From NCBI GenBank assembly GCA_019314425.1, contig JAFCZI010000070.1:1-9242 (forward strand): 9,242 bases of DNA. Reading direction: 5' to 3'. The position numbers were made by a program, and so were the translations under genes. Of the stretch, positions 1,316 through 8,037 are shown piece by piece. The DNA is from Deltaproteobacteria bacterium (GTDB taxonomy: Bacteria > Desulfobacterota > DSM-4660 > Desulfatiglandales > Desulfatiglandaceae). The first letter of the stretch is position 1. The number at the start of each line of letters is the position of its first letter. The notes under the pieces were generated by a model. That model worked only from the letters and a program-made list of their open reading frames with translations, ran no database searches and was not told the origin of the DNA.

Positions 1316-1337
1316 ACGGATGTGTTATACCATCCGT
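1316..1337. other. Stem-loop between convergent kinase and helicase genes
   Basis: ACGGATG (1316-1322) pairs perfectly with CATCCGT (1331-1337) around an 8-nt loop that contains the hrpA stop codon. Neither strand has a U-tract after the stem, so it is not a textbook intrinsic terminator. It may still act as a bidirectional mRNA 3'-end hairpin for the two converging genes. It could also be chance. Confidence 0.3.
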
Positions 1338-4300
1338 TCCAATTCCCGCATCTTTTCATCCAATCGCTTGGCTGAAACCGGTATGGAAGTCTTCAGTTCC
1401 TGGGCAAAAACAGAGATCTTATATTCTTCCACCATCCAGAAGAATTCTTCAAAAGCACGTCTTTTTTCAGGGGAAGCCCCCGAAGTGATGTGCGAGAGGT
1501 CCCTTATGAGGACGGCCTTCAGGGGTGTAACGCGCGCCTCCTTTTCTCGATCTTTGTCCGGGTTATAGGCGCCCCGTTCGGCCCTGATTTCAAGGGCTCT
1601 GAGATAGCGTGGCACATGGGCCAGATGGGCCATGTCATAGCGTTCCAGAAAATCCTGAGGCACCAGTGCCCCCATCTCCGTCAAAAGGCGTTTGCACAAG
1701 ACTTCCGCAGGGGGGGTGTTTTTGTTTTTAATCTCCGTTTGATGGATGAACTGTATCGCGTGATGGTAAGCGGAAAGGACCTGGCCCGTAAGTTCCATTA
1801 ACCGTTTACCTGTGGGAAAAATTTCAAGGGCAGTGGACTGGGCGGTCTCTTTGAAGGCTGTTTCAGTTCGAATATCGCGATCAAAAAAACGGACCATAAG
1901 CGTTTCGAACATGGCGGCTTCCACGGATTTCGGCCCCCCGAAATCAATGGTTTTCGAAGATAGATGCGCGGGTATCTTCAGATCTTTTTTGAGTTGCTTC
2001 AGATCTTTTTTAAAGTGGAGCATGAACAACTTTCTAATGCCGCGCCGGTGGGATTCAAGGGCTTTCTGCCGATTTCTGAAAAGGCGGATCTCAACACTGT
2101 TTTCAGCCGGTGAAAGGGCGGGAAAGGCCACCAGGCCGGGGGGCAGGGAAACGGTTTCCGGAAGGGTTTTGAAAGACCAGGATACGATGTTCTGTTTTTC
2201 CCACTGAGCCGTCGCTTTTCGCCAGACGTCGGGTTGTTTTCCAGACTGTTTTTTGTCGACTTCCGGCAATCTATTCAGGATCGACGCATCCCTTGCGGAT
2301 TTCAGTTCCCGGTTTCGATGGTCCCTGATGGAAACCCGCATTTGCAGGTGTTCGGGAATATCCGAATCCGCCCACGCGACCGCCGGGATATCCACTCCGA
2401 AGCGTTTATAGATAAAGCGTCCAAGGGTCGAAATCAACGGGTCTGAGGATTTTTCCATCTCGGATAGGATGATTTCCACGGTGCCGGAGACGGGCACAAG
2501 CGGCTTTCGATAGCGCTTGGGCAGCCCTTTAATGAGGGCGGTGATTTTTTCCCGAAAAAGACCCGGCACCATCCAGTCCAGTTGATGGGGAGACACTTGG
2601 GAGGCTTGATCCAACGGCACGCTGAGGGTCACCCCGTCATCCGGTTTGCCAGGTTTAAACTTATAAGAGAGCTGGAAGGCGCCGTTTCCGACGTTCATTA
2701 CATCCGGGTACTGGGCGACCTCTCCCGGGTCCGGAATTTCGGCGATGATATCGGATTTCGTCATTTTGAGAAAATCATCATTTCCCCGTTTTCTGATGTG
2801 TTTCTCAAGTGTGCGGATGTCGTATATGCCCGGGAGCCGCGACGAATAGAATGCTTCCATACGTTCGTCGCTGACCCGAATGCCCCGCCGTCGAACTTTC
2901 TCCTCCATTTGGGTGATGTCTTCGATGAGGGTTTGGTTATGAACCAGGAAACTGAACTTTTTATTCATGTTCCCTTCGACCAGGGCGGATCTGACGAAGA
3001 TGGCGTGAGACAGGGACGGATCGATGGGTCCATAGGATACGGGACGATTGGAAACGATGACCAGACCGTACAGGCTGACCTGCTCATATGCCCGGACCTG
3101 TCCCGCTTTTTTTTCCCAATGGGGATTGGCGTAGGTGGATTTGCACAGGCTGCCGCCCAGGGTTTCCAGCCATTCCGGATCTATTTTTGCGGCGGTTCTG
3201 GCAAAGAGCCTCGATGTTTTGACCATCTCCACCGCCACGATCCAATCCGGACTTTTGTTAAACAGGGTGGAGCCGGGAAAAAGCATGGCTTCCCTTCCCC
3301 TGGCCGCCAGGTAAATATTTTTCTCCTTTTTAACGGCGATATTGGACAAATAACCGCTTAGAACCGACTGGTGGATGGCGGCATAACGGTCTTTTATGTC
3401 CTTCTGTTTGTTTTCATTTCTGATTCCCTGGGATTTCAGAATATTGGAGATCTGTTCGTGGATGTGGTGCCATTCCCGCATGCGGACAAAAGACAGGAAA
3501 TGGTTTTTGCAGAATTTTCGAATCTTGTTCTGGGTCCGCAGGGTTTTAAAGGAACGGTGATAATGGTTCCAGATATTGAGCAGTGTGATAAAGTCAGAAC
3601 CCGAATCCTTGAATTTCGCATGGGCCTGATCCGCCTGGGCCGCTTTTTCAAGGGGCCTCTCCCTGGGGTCCTGAATACTCAGGGCCGATGCGATAACGGC
3701 CACATCATATACGCAGCCCTTGCTTTCCGCTTCGAGGATCATGCGGGAGATTTTCGGATCAATGGGCATTTTGCTCATCATCCGGCCTCTTCGTGTCAGG
3801 ACCGGTTCACCCTTTTTTCGAATTACGGCCCCCAGCTCCACCAGCAGGTCAAATCCGTCTTTGATGCTCCTGGGGTTGGGCTTATCAAGGAATGGGAAGG
3901 CCGCAATTTTTCCGAGCTTCAAGGAAATCATGCGAAGGATGACCTCCGCAAGGTTGGATCGGAGGATTTCGGGGTCGGTGAATTCCTGTCGGGATTCGTA
4001 GTCTTCCTCTGAATAGAGTCGGATGCACATACCCTTTTCCAGACGACCGCAACGGCCTTCACGTTGATCCGCACTGCTTCTGGCAATGGGGCTTATGGGT
4101 AGGCTGGTAGAACGGGTTCTTGGAACATACCGTGAGATCCTGGCCAGCCCCGTGTCCACCACATATTTGATGCCCGGAATGGTCAGGGAAGTTTCCGCCA
4201 CGTTGGTGGATACGATGACCTTACGTCCGTTTGCGGGTGCAAATACTCTGGCCTGCTGGGGGCCCGGCAACCTTGCAAATAGGGGCAAGACGGTGATATT

Positions 4301-5122
4301 TTTGAGCTTTCGTTCCGACAGCCTTTCACAGGTTTCAAGAATATCCCGCTCCGTTGGTATGAACACCAGAATATCCCCGAACGCGCCGGATCGGAAAATG
4401 TCTTCCGTGGCTTTTATCGCTGCATCCACATAGGTCATATCCCCTTTTTCCTGAAGTTCCGGGTCAACCGGCCGGTATTGGACCGAGACCGGATATCGCC
4501 GCCCGGATACCTGTATCACCGGTGCATTGTCGAACTCTTTAGAGAATTTTTCCGTGTCAATGGTGGCGGACGTGATGATTAGTTTCAGATCTTTTCGTTT
4601 TTTGAGCAGTTTTTTCAGAATCCCTAAAATAAAATCAATGTTCAAGCTTCGTTCGTGGGCCTCATCAACAATGATGGTATCGTATTGGGTTAGATGTGGG
4701 TTTTGTTGCGTCTCCGCCAGCAACATGCCATCGGTCAGCACCTTGATATAGCCCTGTTTGCTGGTGCGGTCTTTAAAGCGAATTTTGTACCCGACCGAAT
4801 TTCCGATGGTTTCTCCCAGTTCATCTGCGATTCGGGCCGCAATAGTGGTGGCGGCAATGCGACGGGGCTGTGTGCAGGCAATTTTGCCATCAATGCCCCG
4901 GCCGGCTGCAAGGCACATCTTGGGTATCTGGGTGCTTTTCCCCGAACCCGTGTCGCCGGAAATAATCACCACCGGGTATTTTCTAATGGCGTCAACGATG
5001 TCGGTTTTCTTTGCAGTAATCGGGAGATTTTCAGGGAAGGACACTCTTGGGCGTTGTCGAAAACGCCGTTGTTTCTCCGCCGTGGATGCCTTAATATTGC
5101 TTTTGATGGTGAATGAAGTCAT
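1325..5122 (-). CDS. hrpA: ATP-dependent DEAH-box RNA helicase HrpA
   Basis: The 1265-residue product is close to the usual ~1300 of bacterial HrpA. Helicase motifs appear in order: Walker A GDTGSGKS (56-63), Ia TQPRR (84-88), DEAH (153-156), SAT (185-187), motif V STNVAETSLT (305-314) and motif VI QREGRCGR (353-360). An HA2/winged-helix region follows (about 400-520), then an OB-fold region and the long C-terminal DUF3418-type region (about 690-1265) that separates HrpA from shorter DEAH helicases such as HrpB. The family uses NTP hydrolysis to remodel RNA; E. coli HrpA has been linked to mRNA processing and ribosome rescue. The start at 5122 is the first Met of the frame and leaves a basic ~30-residue N-terminus before the helicase core; the ribosome site is weak (AAGAA next to ATG). 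The gene stands alone and is divergent from tRNA-Phe. The sequence appears intact. Confidence 0.96.
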   Translation of the reverse strand: MTSFTIKSNIKASTAEKQRRFRQRPRVSFPENLPITAKKTDIVDAIRKYPVVIISGDTGSGKSTQIPKMCLAAGRGIDGKIACTQPRRIAATTIAARIADELGETIGNSVGYKIRFKDRTSKQGYIKVLTDGMLLAETQQNPHLTQYDTIIVDEAHERSLNIDFILGILKKLLKKRKDLKLIITSATIDTEKFSKEFDNAPVIQVSGRRYPVSVQYRPVDPELQEKGDMTYVDAAIKATEDIFRSGAFGDILVFIPTERDILETCERLSERKLKNITVLPLFARLPGPQQARVFAPANGRKVIVSTNVAETSLTIPGIKYVVDTGLARISRYVPRTRSTSLPISPIARSSADQREGRCGRLEKGMCIRLYSEEDYESRQEFTDPEILRSNLAEVILRMISLKLGKIAAFPFLDKPNPRSIKDGFDLLVELGAVIRKKGEPVLTRRGRMMSKMPIDPKISRMILEAESKGCVYDVAVIASALSIQDPRERPLEKAAQADQAHAKFKDSGSDFITLLNIWNHYHRSFKTLRTQNKIRKFCKNHFLSFVRMREWHHIHEQISNILKSQGIRNENKQKDIKDRYAAIHQSVLSGYLSNIAVKKEKNIYLAARGREAMLFPGSTLFNKSPDWIVAVEMVKTSRLFARTAAKIDPEWLETLGGSLCKSTYANPHWEKKAGQVRAYEQVSLYGLVIVSNRPVSYGPIDPSLSHAIFVRSALVEGNMNKKFSFLVHNQTLIEDITQMEEKVRRRGIRVSDERMEAFYSSRLPGIYDIRTLEKHIRKRGNDDFLKMTKSDIIAEIPDPGEVAQYPDVMNVGNGAFQLSYKFKPGKPDDGVTLSVPLDQASQVSPHQLDWMVPGLFREKITALIKGLPKRYRKPLVPVSGTVEIILSEMEKSSDPLISTLGRFIYKRFGVDIPAVAWADSDIPEHLQMRVSIRDHRNRELKSARDASILNRLPEVDKKQSGKQPDVWRKATAQWEKQNIVSWSFKTLPETVSLPPGLVAFPALSPAENSVEIRLFRNRQKALESHRRGIRKLFMLHFKKDLKQLKKDLKIPAHLSSKTIDFGGPKSVEAAMFETLMVRFFDRDIRTETAFKETAQSTALEIFPTGKRLMELTGQVLSAYHHAIQFIHQTEIKNKNTPPAEVLCKRLLTEMGALVPQDFLERYDMAHLAHVPRYLRALEIRAERGAYNPDKDREKEARVTPLKAVLIRDLSHITSGASPEKRRAFEEFFWMVEEYKISVFAQELKTSIPVSAKRLDEKMRELERMV

Positions 5123-5139
5123 TTCTTATAAGTTTATGC

Positions 5140-5168
5140 TTGACCGAATCATTTCTAACCGCTATATT
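5140..5168 (+). promoter_or_regulatory. Sigma-70 promoter of tRNA-Phe
   Basis: TTGACC (5140-5145) is followed after exactly 17 bases by TATATT (5163-5168), a strong housekeeping promoter reading into the tRNA. Transcription should begin near 5175, just before the mature tRNA 5' end at 5183. The bases after the -10 are GC-rich (GCGCC), a discriminator type associated with stringent (ppGpp) control of stable-RNA promoters. Spacing and hexamers are seen directly; the stringent control is inference. Confidence 0.75.
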
Positions 5169-5182
5169 GCGCCAAATCTGTT

Positions 5183-5258
5183 GCCGAGATAGCTCAGCCG
5201 GTAGAGCAGGGGACTGAAAATCCCCGTGTCCGCAGTTCAACTCTGCGTCTCGGCACCA
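5183..5258 (+). tRNA. tRNA-Phe (anticodon GAA)
   Basis: A full cloverleaf of 76 nt can be drawn. The acceptor stem GCCGAGA (5183-5189) pairs with TCTCGGC (5248-5254). The D stem is GCTC/GAGC. The anticodon stem GGGGA/TCCCC (5209-5213 and 5221-5225) closes loop CTGAAAA with anticodon GAA at 5216-5218. The T stem CGCAG/CTGCG (5231-5235 and 5243-5247) closes TTCAACT. The discriminator is A and the CCA end is encoded (5256-5258). It is a single-gene unit between its own promoter and terminator. No second copy of the tRNA 3' end occurs in the window, so there is no sign of an integrated element using it as an attachment site. Confidence 0.98.
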
Positions 5259-5267
5259 CGTAAAATC

Positions 5268-5303
5268 AGGGACTTAGGCTTTTTTAGCCAAGTCCCTTTT
5301 TTT
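5268..5303 (+). terminator. Intrinsic terminator of tRNA-Phe
   Basis: The stem AGGGACTTaGGCT (5268-5280) pairs with AGCCAAGTCCCT (5286-5297) with one bulged A, around a short T-rich loop, and runs straight into a stretch of seven T (5297-5303). This is a classic Rho-independent terminator 10 nt after the tRNA CCA end. Confidence 0.9.
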
Positions 5304-5493
5304 ATCTCTACGGATTTTTGCCTTACCCCAGTCTCACGCATTGATATACTCCGATTCTCACCCCGTGCCCGGCGAAAACTTGGCTGGCGTTTGTTTTCAA
5401 GGCCAAGTGGTTATTTCCTATACCCTCCGGGCCTGCCTCGCTTTCGCAATGGCCCCATAACTTGACCCATCCCGGCGCTTGAATTTTGTTGGA

Positions 5494-5561
5494 AAAAAGT
5501 CCCATCTACTGCATTTCAGTGATTTTTCAGAATCTCAACCTACGACCTGTATGCCTACGAT
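5494..5561 (+). repeat. Hairpin repeat copy A
   Basis: This shares almost all of its 68 bp with copy B (6051-6119) in the same orientation. The common parts are an AAAAAGTCCCATCTACTGC left part, a small hairpin, a TTTTTCAGAATCTCAAC right part, and then CGACCTGTATGCCTACGAT. Copy A differs by a G-to-T change in the hairpin (TTCAG for TTGCAG context), a missing C before the T run, and two substitutions. The left outer bases found in copies B and C (GATGG…CGT) are absent here. Family identity is unknown; it looks like a REP- or MITE-type element. Confidence 0.85.
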
Positions 5562-5604
5562 CCTAAAAAACCACTACGCCTTGGATTTGGAACCTTTTAC
5601 AATG

Positions 5605-5651
5605 CCATCTACAAATGGATTTGTGACTTTTTACGAGTGCATCAAATTTTG
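5605..5651 (+). repeat. Left arm of 47-bp perfect inverted repeat
   Basis: This arm is the exact reverse complement of 5998-6044, with no mismatch over 47 bp; similarity stops abruptly on both sides. It contains an internal palindrome ACAAATGGATTTGT. Its plan (CCATCTAC, hairpin core, GTGACTTTTT) matches the hairpin repeats A, B and C, so the arm looks like a diverged member of that family with a different core and right flank. The arms are separated by 346 bp. Confidence 0.95.
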
Positions 5652-5894
5652 CAAGTGTCTCTTTTATCGAAGGGTTCAATTTTTTCGAACCAAAACATTT
5701 GTGAGCACAAGTCCAAACGGCGCCGATGTGAAAATATCGACCAGGTTTTGAGCATTCAGGGCCTCTGTAACGGACACGAAGGGGAATCTCCTTGACTGAT
5801 TTCCTTTGCTAATTTTGGGAACCATGGTATATTTTAACGGAAATTTCAAGCGTTTATTTTCCCGAAAGAGGCAGAATTTAAAAATTCCTTAAAC

Positions 5895-5911
5895 TTGGCA
5901 TGAAACCTGCG
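5895..5911 (+). promoter_or_regulatory. Sigma-54 (-24/-12) promoter
   Basis: TTGGCATGAAACCTGCG matches the sigma-54 consensus YTGGCACGRNNNTTGCW except at three positions. The invariant GG (5897-5898) and GC (5909-5910) have the required 10-bp separation. Transcription would start near 5922 and read rightward into the sigma-54 activator gene at 6161, through a leader of about 240 nt containing two large hairpins. The promoter lies wholly between the two 47-bp inverted-repeat arms. The match is seen directly; activity and autoregulation by the downstream activator are inferred. Confidence 0.72.
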
Positions 5912-5997
5912 TTAGATGCGTCAGAATAACTGCGGAAGGGGGGGCTTAATTAGTGCCTGAACGAAAACTAGGATTTTTCGTCAAGGTCAAGGAGAAT

Positions 5998-6044
5998 CAA
6001 AATTTGATGCACTCGTAAAAAGTCACAAATCCATTTGTAGATGG
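5998..6044 (-). repeat. Right arm of 47-bp perfect inverted repeat
   Basis: This is the exact reverse complement of 5605-5651. It abuts repeat copy B, so that the two together build an imperfect palindrome of about 69 bp (6017-6085). The arm also covers the ATG at 6007 that follows a ribosome-site-like AAGGAG. Confidence 0.95.
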
Positions 6045-6085
6045 TGCCGTAAAAAGTCCCATCTACTGCATTGCAGTGACTTTTT
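6017..6085. repeat. 69-bp imperfect palindrome at the arm/copy B junction
   Basis: AAAAAGTCAC (6017-6026) pairs with GTGACTTTTT (6076-6085), and TAGATGG (6038-6044) with CCATCTA (6059-6065), both about one axis near 6051. Each half also holds its own small hairpin (ACAAATCCATTTGT; CTGCATTGCAG). The RNA or DNA could therefore fold as one long structure or as two short ones. It lies in the predicted leader of the sigma-54 activator gene, ending 75 bp before its start codon. Confidence 0.8.
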
Positions 6086-6119
6086 CAGAATCTCAACATG
6101 CGACCTGTATGCCTACGAT
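6051..6119 (+). repeat. Hairpin repeat copy B
   Basis: This 69-bp copy is nearly identical to copy A over its full length. Its left flank (GATGGTGCCGT, 6040-6050) is close to that of copy C (GATGGCGTCGT). The hairpin CTGCATTGCAG lies at its centre. It ends 41 bp before the sigma-54 activator start codon and lies inside the predicted leader RNA. Confidence 0.85.
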
Positions 6120-6160
6120 TTTATCAGAAAAAATTATTTCTTGAATGAGAAGGAGAACCC

Positions 6161-7546
6161 ATGAAACCGGTTCGGGAACTGATGAATCAGAACAAATTCT
6201 TGAAGGGGTTATTTTCAGCGATACCATGTGGGGTGCTGATTGTCGATCGTGAGCGAAGAGTTCTTATCATCAACCGCGTTATTGAGCGTATCTTTGGCGT
6301 GTCTGATGCCGATGTGACCGGTAAGAGCGGCGGGGAGGTACTTCGGTGTGTCCATGTTGATGATAGCCCGGGCGGCTGCGGTTTTGGTGATCACTGTCGG
6401 GCCTGCCTGGTGCGAAAAACAGCCCTTGACGCCATCGGCGGTCAACAGATTAACCGGAATCGGACGGATATGGAATTGCTGGTCAAGGGGAAACCCCGAA
6501 ATCTGACGCTTTTGGTCAGTGCAGCGCCTTTTGACCACGAAACAGAACGGTTGGCGGTGGTGCTTGTGGAGGACATTACTGAGCTTTCAACCCTTCGTGC
6601 GCGTTTGAAAACCGAGCACTCTTTTGCGGGCATTATCAGTCAGGATGATCGTATGCTCGAACTGTTTGAAACCATAAAAGAAATTGCGGATGTGAATATC
6701 CCGGTTTTGATACAGGGGGAAAGTGGAACCGGCAAAGAGCTGGTGGCCTCGGCAATTCATAACGAAGGGCAGAGATCTTCGGAACCCTTCGTGCCCGTCA
6801 ATTGCGGGGCTTTGCCGGAAGGGCTTCTGGAGAGTGAGTTGTTCGGCCATGTGAAGGGTGCTTTTACGGGGGCTATAAGGGATAAAAAAGGTCGCTTCGA
6901 ACTGGCGCACCGGGGGACGCTTTTCCTCGATGAGATTGGCGATATGCCCAAATCCGTGCAGGTCAAATTGTTGCGTGTGCTTCAGGAAGGAACATTCGAA
7001 CGCGTCGGAGGTGAGCGAACCCTGTCCGCAGATGTGCGCCTGATCAGCGCCACGAACTGCGATTTGAAACGCGAAGTGGGCAGTGGTAATTTTCGTGATG
7101 ACCTTTATTACCGTGTTAATGTGGTTCCGGTTTTTCTGCCGTCGTTAAAGGAGAGAAAACAGGATATTCCATTGCTGACGGAACATTTCTTGAAAATTGC
7201 CGGGGAGGAAGGACAGAAAAACGGGGGAATTTCCAGAGATGCTCTGGCCATTATGATCGATTATGCCTGGCCTGGAAATATCCGTGAGTTGCAGAGCGCA
7301 ATCCGTTTTGCCATTGTAAAATCACGGGGGCGGATGATACAGCCGGGGCATTTACCCCTCGAGTTGAAATCAGACGAAAACAGGAATCACTCCCGTGGCC
7401 CCAAACGAAAGTTAAATGGGCCGAATGTGAGCAGGGCGCTTATCCAAAGCGGCGGTAATAAAGCCAAAGCAGCCAGAGTTCTGGGTGTGGGACGTGCGAC
7501 CCTCTATCGATTTCTGGCCGACCGGCCGGATTTAATCCCCTCCTGA
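6161..7546 (+). CDS. PAS-domain sigma-54-dependent transcriptional activator
   Basis: The 461-residue bacterial enhancer-binding protein has three parts. An N-terminal PAS domain (about 15-140) carries a Cys cluster C63, C73, C79, C82 (GGCGFGDHCRACLVR). A complete AAA+ domain follows with Walker A GESGTGKE (186-193), GAFTGA sigma-54 contact loop (233-238), Walker B LFLDEI (254-259), arginine-finger region FRDDLYYRVN (311-320) and sensor II PGNIREL (371-377). The C-terminus is a Fis-type helix-turn-helix (about 420-455). The intact GAFTGA means it should activate sigma-54 polymerase by ATP hydrolysis. With no receiver domain, control is probably by a ligand or redox state sensed in the PAS part. 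AAGGAG (6150-6155) lies 5 nt before the ATG. The gene lies downstream of a sigma-54 promoter (5895-5911), pointing to autoregulation. Target genes are not known; the HD/ferredoxin operon downstream has an Fnr-like site rather than a -24/-12 promoter. Confidence 0.95.
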   Translation: MKPVRELMNQNKFLKGLFSAIPCGVLIVDRERRVLIINRVIERIFGVSDADVTGKSGGEVLRCVHVDDSPGGCGFGDHCRACLVRKTALDAIGGQQINRNRTDMELLVKGKPRNLTLLVSAAPFDHETERLAVVLVEDITELSTLRARLKTEHSFAGIISQDDRMLELFETIKEIADVNIPVLIQGESGTGKELVASAIHNEGQRSSEPFVPVNCGALPEGLLESELFGHVKGAFTGAIRDKKGRFELAHRGTLFLDEIGDMPKSVQVKLLRVLQEGTFERVGGERTLSADVRLISATNCDLKREVGSGNFRDDLYYRVNVVPVFLPSLKERKQDIPLLTEHFLKIAGEEGQKNGGISRDALAIMIDYAWPGNIRELQSAIRFAIVKSRGRMIQPGHLPLELKSDENRNHSRGPKRKLNGPNVSRALIQSGGNKAKAARVLGVGRATLYRFLADRPDLIPS

Positions 7547-7585: not shown

Positions 7586-7824
7586 GACGCACAAAACAAC
7601 ACAGAAGTTGATGATCCGGTATTTGACGGACAATGCCTGGAGACTTCTGAACGGAGAATTTATTTTTGTCTCGGGACCATGCGAAAGCATCTGATCTTGA
7701 ACCGGGTCGATATGTCAGGGTTTCAGTGCTTGATGCGGGGGTGGGCATGGACGATGCGACCCGAATGAAGATTTTTGACCCGTTTTTTACAACGAGGCCC
7801 GTGAGAGATGTTAGACCCACCTGA
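7586..7824 (+). pseudogene. Decayed histidine-kinase ATPase-domain remnant
   Basis: Two adjacent frames together spell part of a HATPase_c domain. The frame at 7605-7658 reads [18 protein letters not shown], resembling the N-box region of PAS-type kinases. The frame at 7651-7821 ends in [19 protein letters not shown] followed by [11 protein letters not shown], which contains G1- and F-box motifs, then stops at 7822-7824. The frame changes near 7650-7658. The G2 box (GTGLGL) is missing, as are the dimerisation domain and everything upstream. No ribosome site or plausible start is visible. The left boundary is approximate. It is not related closely to the kinase at 1-1296; the linker and F-box style differ. 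It may be the remains of a kinase that once sat beside the sigma-54 activator. The likeness to the family is clear; its history is inference. Confidence 0.75.
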
Positions 7825-7969: not shown

Positions 7970-8037
7970 ATGGCGTCGTAAAAAGTCCCATCTACTGCGT
8001 TGCAGTGATTTTTCAGAATCTCAACATACGACGCCAT
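7970..8037 (+). repeat. Hairpin repeat copy C with terminal inverted repeats
   Basis: This shares the core of copies A and B (AAAAAGTCCCATCTACTGC, a GTT-loop hairpin, then the CAGAATCTCAACAT right part). Unlike them it is closed by a perfect 11-bp inverted repeat, ATGGCGTCGTA (7970-7980) and TACGACGCCAT (8027-8037). The inner hairpin ACTGC-GTT-GCAGT is perfect. It looks like the most complete form of the element, 68 bp long with no coding capacity, and lies in the predicted leader of the HD/ferredoxin operon. Confidence 0.88.

Follow-up and report, generated by a model that had tools for sequence, protein, structure and literature searches.

The window analysed here is a stretch of 9,242 nucleotides that makes up contig C462 of a metagenome-assembled genome (MAG; 2.81 Mb in 475 contigs, 80% complete, 5% contamination). 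A gene encoding a DEAH-type helicase and a tRNA gene are separated from the gene of a sigma-54 activator by a segment that lies between two inverted 47-bp arms and carries a predicted sigma-54 promoter (Table 1). None of the 25 best NCBIfam models reached its cut-off with the activator protein. An earlier note on this DNA had reported the arms as a perfect inverted repeat, and this was confirmed: each sequence is the exact reverse complement of the other, 346 bp separate the two, and a match of this length had a chance expectation of 0.00 in 200 shuffles. A repeat finder stretches the match to 64 bp at 91% identity (5588-5651/5998-6061).

Table 1. Features of the window discussed in the text (positions are those of the whole stretch)
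Feature	Position	Strand	Remarks
DEAH-type helicase gene	1325-5122	-	Assigned from domains; the name HrpA is a reading of those domains
tRNA gene	5183-5255		On the other side of the segment from the activator gene
Target-site duplication of copy A, left (AATTTT)	5482-5487	+	By eye
MITE-1 copy A, 157 bp	5488-5644	+	Full length, left tip eroded
Left arm	5605-5651	+	Made up of the copy A right end, the 6-bp target duplication and one more base
Target-site duplication of copy A, right (AATTTT)	5645-5650	+	By eye
Inter-arm segment, 346 bp	5652-5997	.	A single full-length occurrence in the MAG among 11 scored of 62 candidates
Predicted sigma-54 promoter, TGGCATGAAACCTGC	5896-5910	+	Exact match to TGGCAYGNNNNYTGC
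MITE-2 fragment (left part; rest missing)	5951-6004	+	Second repeat family; adjoins the reversed end of copy B
Right arm	5998-6044	-	Final bases of the MITE-2 fragment and the reversed right end of copy B
MITE-1 copy B, rearranged and truncated	6005 to ~6117	.	Right limit from the orthologue alignment beginning at 6118
PAS / sigma-54 activator (AAA+) / Fis-type HTH regulator gene, 461 aa	6161-7546	+	
MITE-1 half copy	7970-8033	+	Downstream of the activator gene

Both arms are the right-hand ends of a MITE-like repeat family of about 157 bp, here called MITE-1. Two opposed repeat copies had been the fallback of the earlier note, and this is what the arms turned out to be. We searched the MAG with positions 5480-6130 as the query and scored 40 of the 259 first-look candidates, which makes the resulting count a lower bound: the element at 5494-5651 was found in at least 39 other places at 87-94% identity and at full or near-full length. 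A pattern of the 25-bp right end, allowing up to three mismatches, matched 89 sites in the MAG including both arms, and its reversed control matched none. Twenty-nine dispersed copies were fetched and 27 of them aligned, L008 and L012 having been excluded beforehand as they end at contig ends. This alignment placed the borders of the element at GATGG...GTAAAAAGTC and GACTTTTTAC...CATC. Exact target duplications of 5-7 bp flank 15 of the 27 copies, whereas 500 random re-pairings of left with right flanks gave 1.15 on average and 6 at most; the other 12 copies showed no exact duplication of 5 bp or more. Short, non-coding and dispersed (at least 40 scored places, 89 right-end sites), bounded by terminal inverted repeats and associated with target-site duplications, MITE-1 is a MITE-like element by its sequence features.

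No parent transposase of MITE-1 was identified at the one candidate inspected, C125, where the ends lie 1.1 kb apart. This candidate was rejected: its single ORF of at least 80 aa encodes a ParA/MinD-like ATPase as judged by eye, not a transposase. A literature search found no paper on the repeat. Some family members deviate from the usual form. At L143, L144 and L147, short derivatives have the left tip fused directly to the right end, apparently through deletion between CCATCTAC repeats. A half copy of about 65 bp in L148 (G000:C42:8150-9150, at about 770-860) is flanked by a 13-bp direct repeat, GAAAAAAGAACAT (by eye), which is longer than the usual duplication of 5-7 bp.

The diverged related repeats that had been noticed near the arms are further MITE-1 copies or halves (5494-5650, 6041-6113 and 7970-8033). 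The flanks of copy A were judged by eye, outside the script applied to the 27 copies. Copy B consists of a reversed right end (6005-6044) fused at GATGG to a left half in plus sense (6040 to about 6117). The junction is unique in the MAG at up to three mismatches, and C96:6836 (L141) has a similar arrangement that is more diverged. As copy B lacks its other end, a target duplication is not readable there. From 6118, just past copy B, the sequence is again homologous to the same-genus genome G002.

MITE-2, the family to which the neighbouring fragment belongs, is of variable length (about 100-190 bp by eye), with ends reading TAGTGYCTGAAC... and ...GTTCGGGCACTA; the end sequences TAGTGYCTGAACGAAAACT and AGTTTTCGTTCGGGCACTA are present in most of the 18 copies or fragments fetched. 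Eleven of 18 other MITE-2 copies read ATCAAAATTTT where copy B begins, and AAAATT is common among MITE-2 copies at the point of contact. The stretch 5947-5993 occurs in at least 10 other places in the MAG. Matches to the inter-arm segment were found in at least 18 of the 61 genomes searched, its own included, with up to 11 candidates scored per genome.

As claimed before, the segment contains a sigma-54 site, an exact match on the plus strand that is directed at the activator ORF. The exact pattern occurs nine times in the MAG and its reversed control not at all, and RpoN is present. Four of the eight other sites are located 51, 73, 80 and 92 bp ahead of a mechanical ORF start, three are inside mechanical ORFs, and one is not followed by any ORF of 90 aa or more within the extracted stretch. 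The site in the window lies 251 bp before the ATG, but only about 84 bp once 5951-6117 is removed. We consider it probably real and infer a native promoter that the repeats have moved further away from the gene. At 10 related loci (three same-genus and seven more distant ones, out of 30), the 450 bp ahead of the gene contained no exact site. On a home-made sigma-54 score with a maximum of 21.5, the site in the window reaches 19.5, while the best values at these 10 loci range from 12.5 to 18.5. The two candidates scoring 18.5 lie 231 bp upstream in G066 and 287 bp upstream in G004, the latter within apparent coding sequence (by eye). The predicted fold of the leader RNA (5922-6175) was no more stable than that of shuffled sequences (z -1.17; 25 of 200 shuffles were equally or more stable).

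From the perfect identity of the arms beside diverged related repeats, a recent exchange between them had been proposed. This argument was only partly upheld. The 41-bp right end has 28 sites in the MAG within three mismatches, and six dispersed MITE-1 copies are mutually identical over the same 41 bp. Therefore, the identity of the arms alone is no evidence of exchange, and we rejected it as proof. The last six arm bases (ATTTTG) were discarded as evidence as well, since the outer six bases of the 47-bp identity are due to the target duplication of copy A on one side and to the commonest MITE-2 sequence on the other.

What does speak for an exchange is a substitution: both arms carry an A where all 26 other close copies carry a G. 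The exact 25-mer of the arms is restricted to these two among the 89 right-end sites. An A at this position is found in 4 of the 87 other right ends, three of which (C23, C229 and C254) have a different sequence background. The fourth, C422:49-73, shares CAAATGGATTTGTGA with the arms but departs from them at two later positions, so the arms are not quite alone in having this variant. Because the A is common to both arms and absent from the 26 close copies, insertion of two copies independently of each other may not fully account for the arms. The shared substitution hints that one arm served as the template for the other, with odds against coincidence of about one in twenty. It does not count as evidence that the segment inverted repeatedly. 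The number of right-end pairs expected within 401 bp is 1.1 in any orientation and 0.56 in opposed orientation, and the pair in the window is the only one that close among the 89 listed sites.

The main proposal of the earlier note, an on/off switch, was not supported by our analysis. The arms are ends of a dispersed transposable element, which is why they were rejected as a recombinase recognition site, and about one close pair of such ends is expected by chance. No inverted orientation of 5652-5997 was found in the MAG among the 11 of 62 candidates scored. The activator gene has orthologues of 84-87% identity in three same-genus genomes (G002-G004). Nothing in these genomes aligns to the arms at the orthologous locus, and a search for MITE-1 found no match in them at E <= 0.001, with 10 out of 17-23 candidates scored per genome. 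A fourth same-genus genome, G001, has three MITE-1 matches and no close activator orthologue (best E 8.4e-87). No relative carrying the arms was found among the related genomes examined.

In agreement with the earlier note, there was no recombinase among the six window ORFs scanned, and a serine recombinase (PF00239) was not found in the MAG either. The PF00589 places in the MAG comprise XerD, which scored over its NCBIfam cut-off, an XerC-like protein that is cut by a contig end and stayed under the cut-off, and an intact integron-type integrase on C392 (L234), which scored over a subfamily cut-off. A cognate invertase was thus not found in the window or in the MAG; at a completeness of 80% and a contamination of 5%, the MAG could lack a recombinase gene. 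A broken integron-type integrase in two adjacent pieces is located on G000:C220 (L235) of the same MAG. Rare homologous inversion through arms of 47 bp is possible, and it could occur at this locus as a side effect.

Taken together, the arms are opposed ends of a multicopy MITE-like element. We regard it as likely that they came to flank a predicted sigma-54 promoter by repeat insertion and rearrangement in the leader of the activator gene, and they probably do not constitute a dedicated inversion switch. As they are the matching ends of two MITE-1 copies, the arrangement is likely an ordinary by-product of these processes that involves no switch. MITE-2 would have inserted into the leader, downstream of the native promoter. 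Subsequently, either a MITE-1 would have inserted into MITE-2 and then undergone internal inversion and truncation, or a reverse copy of 47 bases from copy A would have been made between the short shared sequences CAAAATTT and GATGG. The distance from promoter to start would thereby have grown from roughly 84 to 251 bp. The second of these options supposes that template switching or gene conversion placed a local copy of copy A's right end at the B site, between the two microhomologies. It concerns the way in which the arms became identical and forms part of the preferred explanation rather than a competitor to it. Our opinion on it is evenly balanced. The arm identity ends abruptly on both sides, the junction of copy B has no second occurrence in the MAG, and the shared substitution is missing from the close copies and rare among right ends in general, all of which would be consistent with copying. 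But the CAAATGGATTTGTGA variant recurs at C422:49-73, and a coincidence of roughly 5% is not rare. Moreover, AATTTT-like targets at other copies (L003, L022) mean that the flank match can be a target preference, and the related but more diverged arrangement at C96:6836 also counts against copying.

Three further readings were weighed against insertion and rearrangement. The assembler could have joined unrelated repeat-bearing fragments, given a MAG of 475 contigs with many repeats and with some MITE-1 copies at contig ends (for example C362:11751-11898 in a contig of 11898 bp). However, the genes on both sides (helicase and tRNA to the left; activator, HD-domain and ferredoxin to the right) align in the same order to one same-genus contig (L031), and 47 bp is less than the usual length of a short read, which makes such an artefact very improbable. 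Alternatively, the sigma-54 match could be accidental and the activator gene transcribed from elsewhere, as the lack of an exact site upstream in the 10 related loci and the three matches within mechanical ORFs would allow. We think this unlikely in view of the nine exact sites against none in the control, the four sites 51-92 bp ahead of an ORF, a range that fits the presumed original spacing, and the weaker candidate in G066.

The remaining reading is a phase-variable promoter, in which 5652-5997 is inverted by RecA or by a trans-acting recombinase, so that the promoter alternates between the activator gene and the helicase-tRNA side. It would draw on the perfect arms and the substitution they share, a sigma-54 site that is probably real in a genome with RpoN, and a segment close in size to the 314-bp fimS. 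According to the excerpt of PMC5903667, invertases can be encoded far from their sites, and Correia elements, a MITE family, are reported to invert in that of PMC10969869. Yet the arms are the ends of a MITE that occurs in dozens of dispersed places, the scored candidates held no second orientation, the tyrosine recombinases found are of Xer or integron type and no serine recombinase accompanies them, three same-genus loci lack the arms, and chance alone provides about one close pair of ends. We therefore consider this reading highly improbable. The chances are equally slim that mobile-repeat ends became a flip switch in which the promoter alternately drives the gene of its own enhancer-binding protein and points across the tRNA gene to the HrpA-type helicase gene. 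Should inversion occur, the locus would represent a phase switch of a regulator that is based on a MITE and driven by sigma-54; a literature search with a single keyword combination found no precedent for an invertible sigma-54 promoter with phase variation.

On L031, the space between the tRNA and activator genes is occupied by a different stretch of about 3.4 kb (2538-5959) with an ORF of 828 aa, by eye a response-regulator/histidine-kinase hybrid, and the activator gene is followed by a kinase-like ORF of 906 aa (7442-10162). Positions 7684-7803 of the window, past the activator gene, align at 75% to part of the latter ORF (9458-9577), which suggests a decayed kinase gene.

The locus illustrates how families of repeats can place perfect inverted arms on both sides of a promoter with no need for a switch, which calls for caution in inverton scans that rank candidates by arm identity. 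It resembles the Clostridioides difficile switches (PMC5903667, as excerpted) and fimS of Escherichia coli in that a promoter, here one predicted from an exact consensus match, lies within a few hundred bp between inverted repeats beside the regulated gene. For site-specific invertible segments, the same excerpt gives repeats of typically 10-20 nt and an invertase that is usually encoded nearby and sometimes elsewhere. In contrast, the 47-bp arms described here are ends of a dispersed mobile repeat, no invertase-type recombinase was found, and one orientation was seen. Another parallel is provided by the Correia elements of Neisseria, for which the excerpt of PMC10969869 describes inversion and one element just downstream of a promoter. 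MITE-1 differs from them in its sequence and host group, the promoter lies outside the MITE-1 element, and the locus is known here in one orientation, whereas inversion has been reported for Correia elements in that excerpt. Like Correia elements as described there, MITE-1 is short and non-coding, has inverted ends and target duplications, exists in many copies and is found near a promoter. Its probable nesting with MITE-2 is reminiscent of the pneumococcal BOX, RUP and SPRITE repeats, which are inserted in one another according to the same excerpt (PMC10969869).
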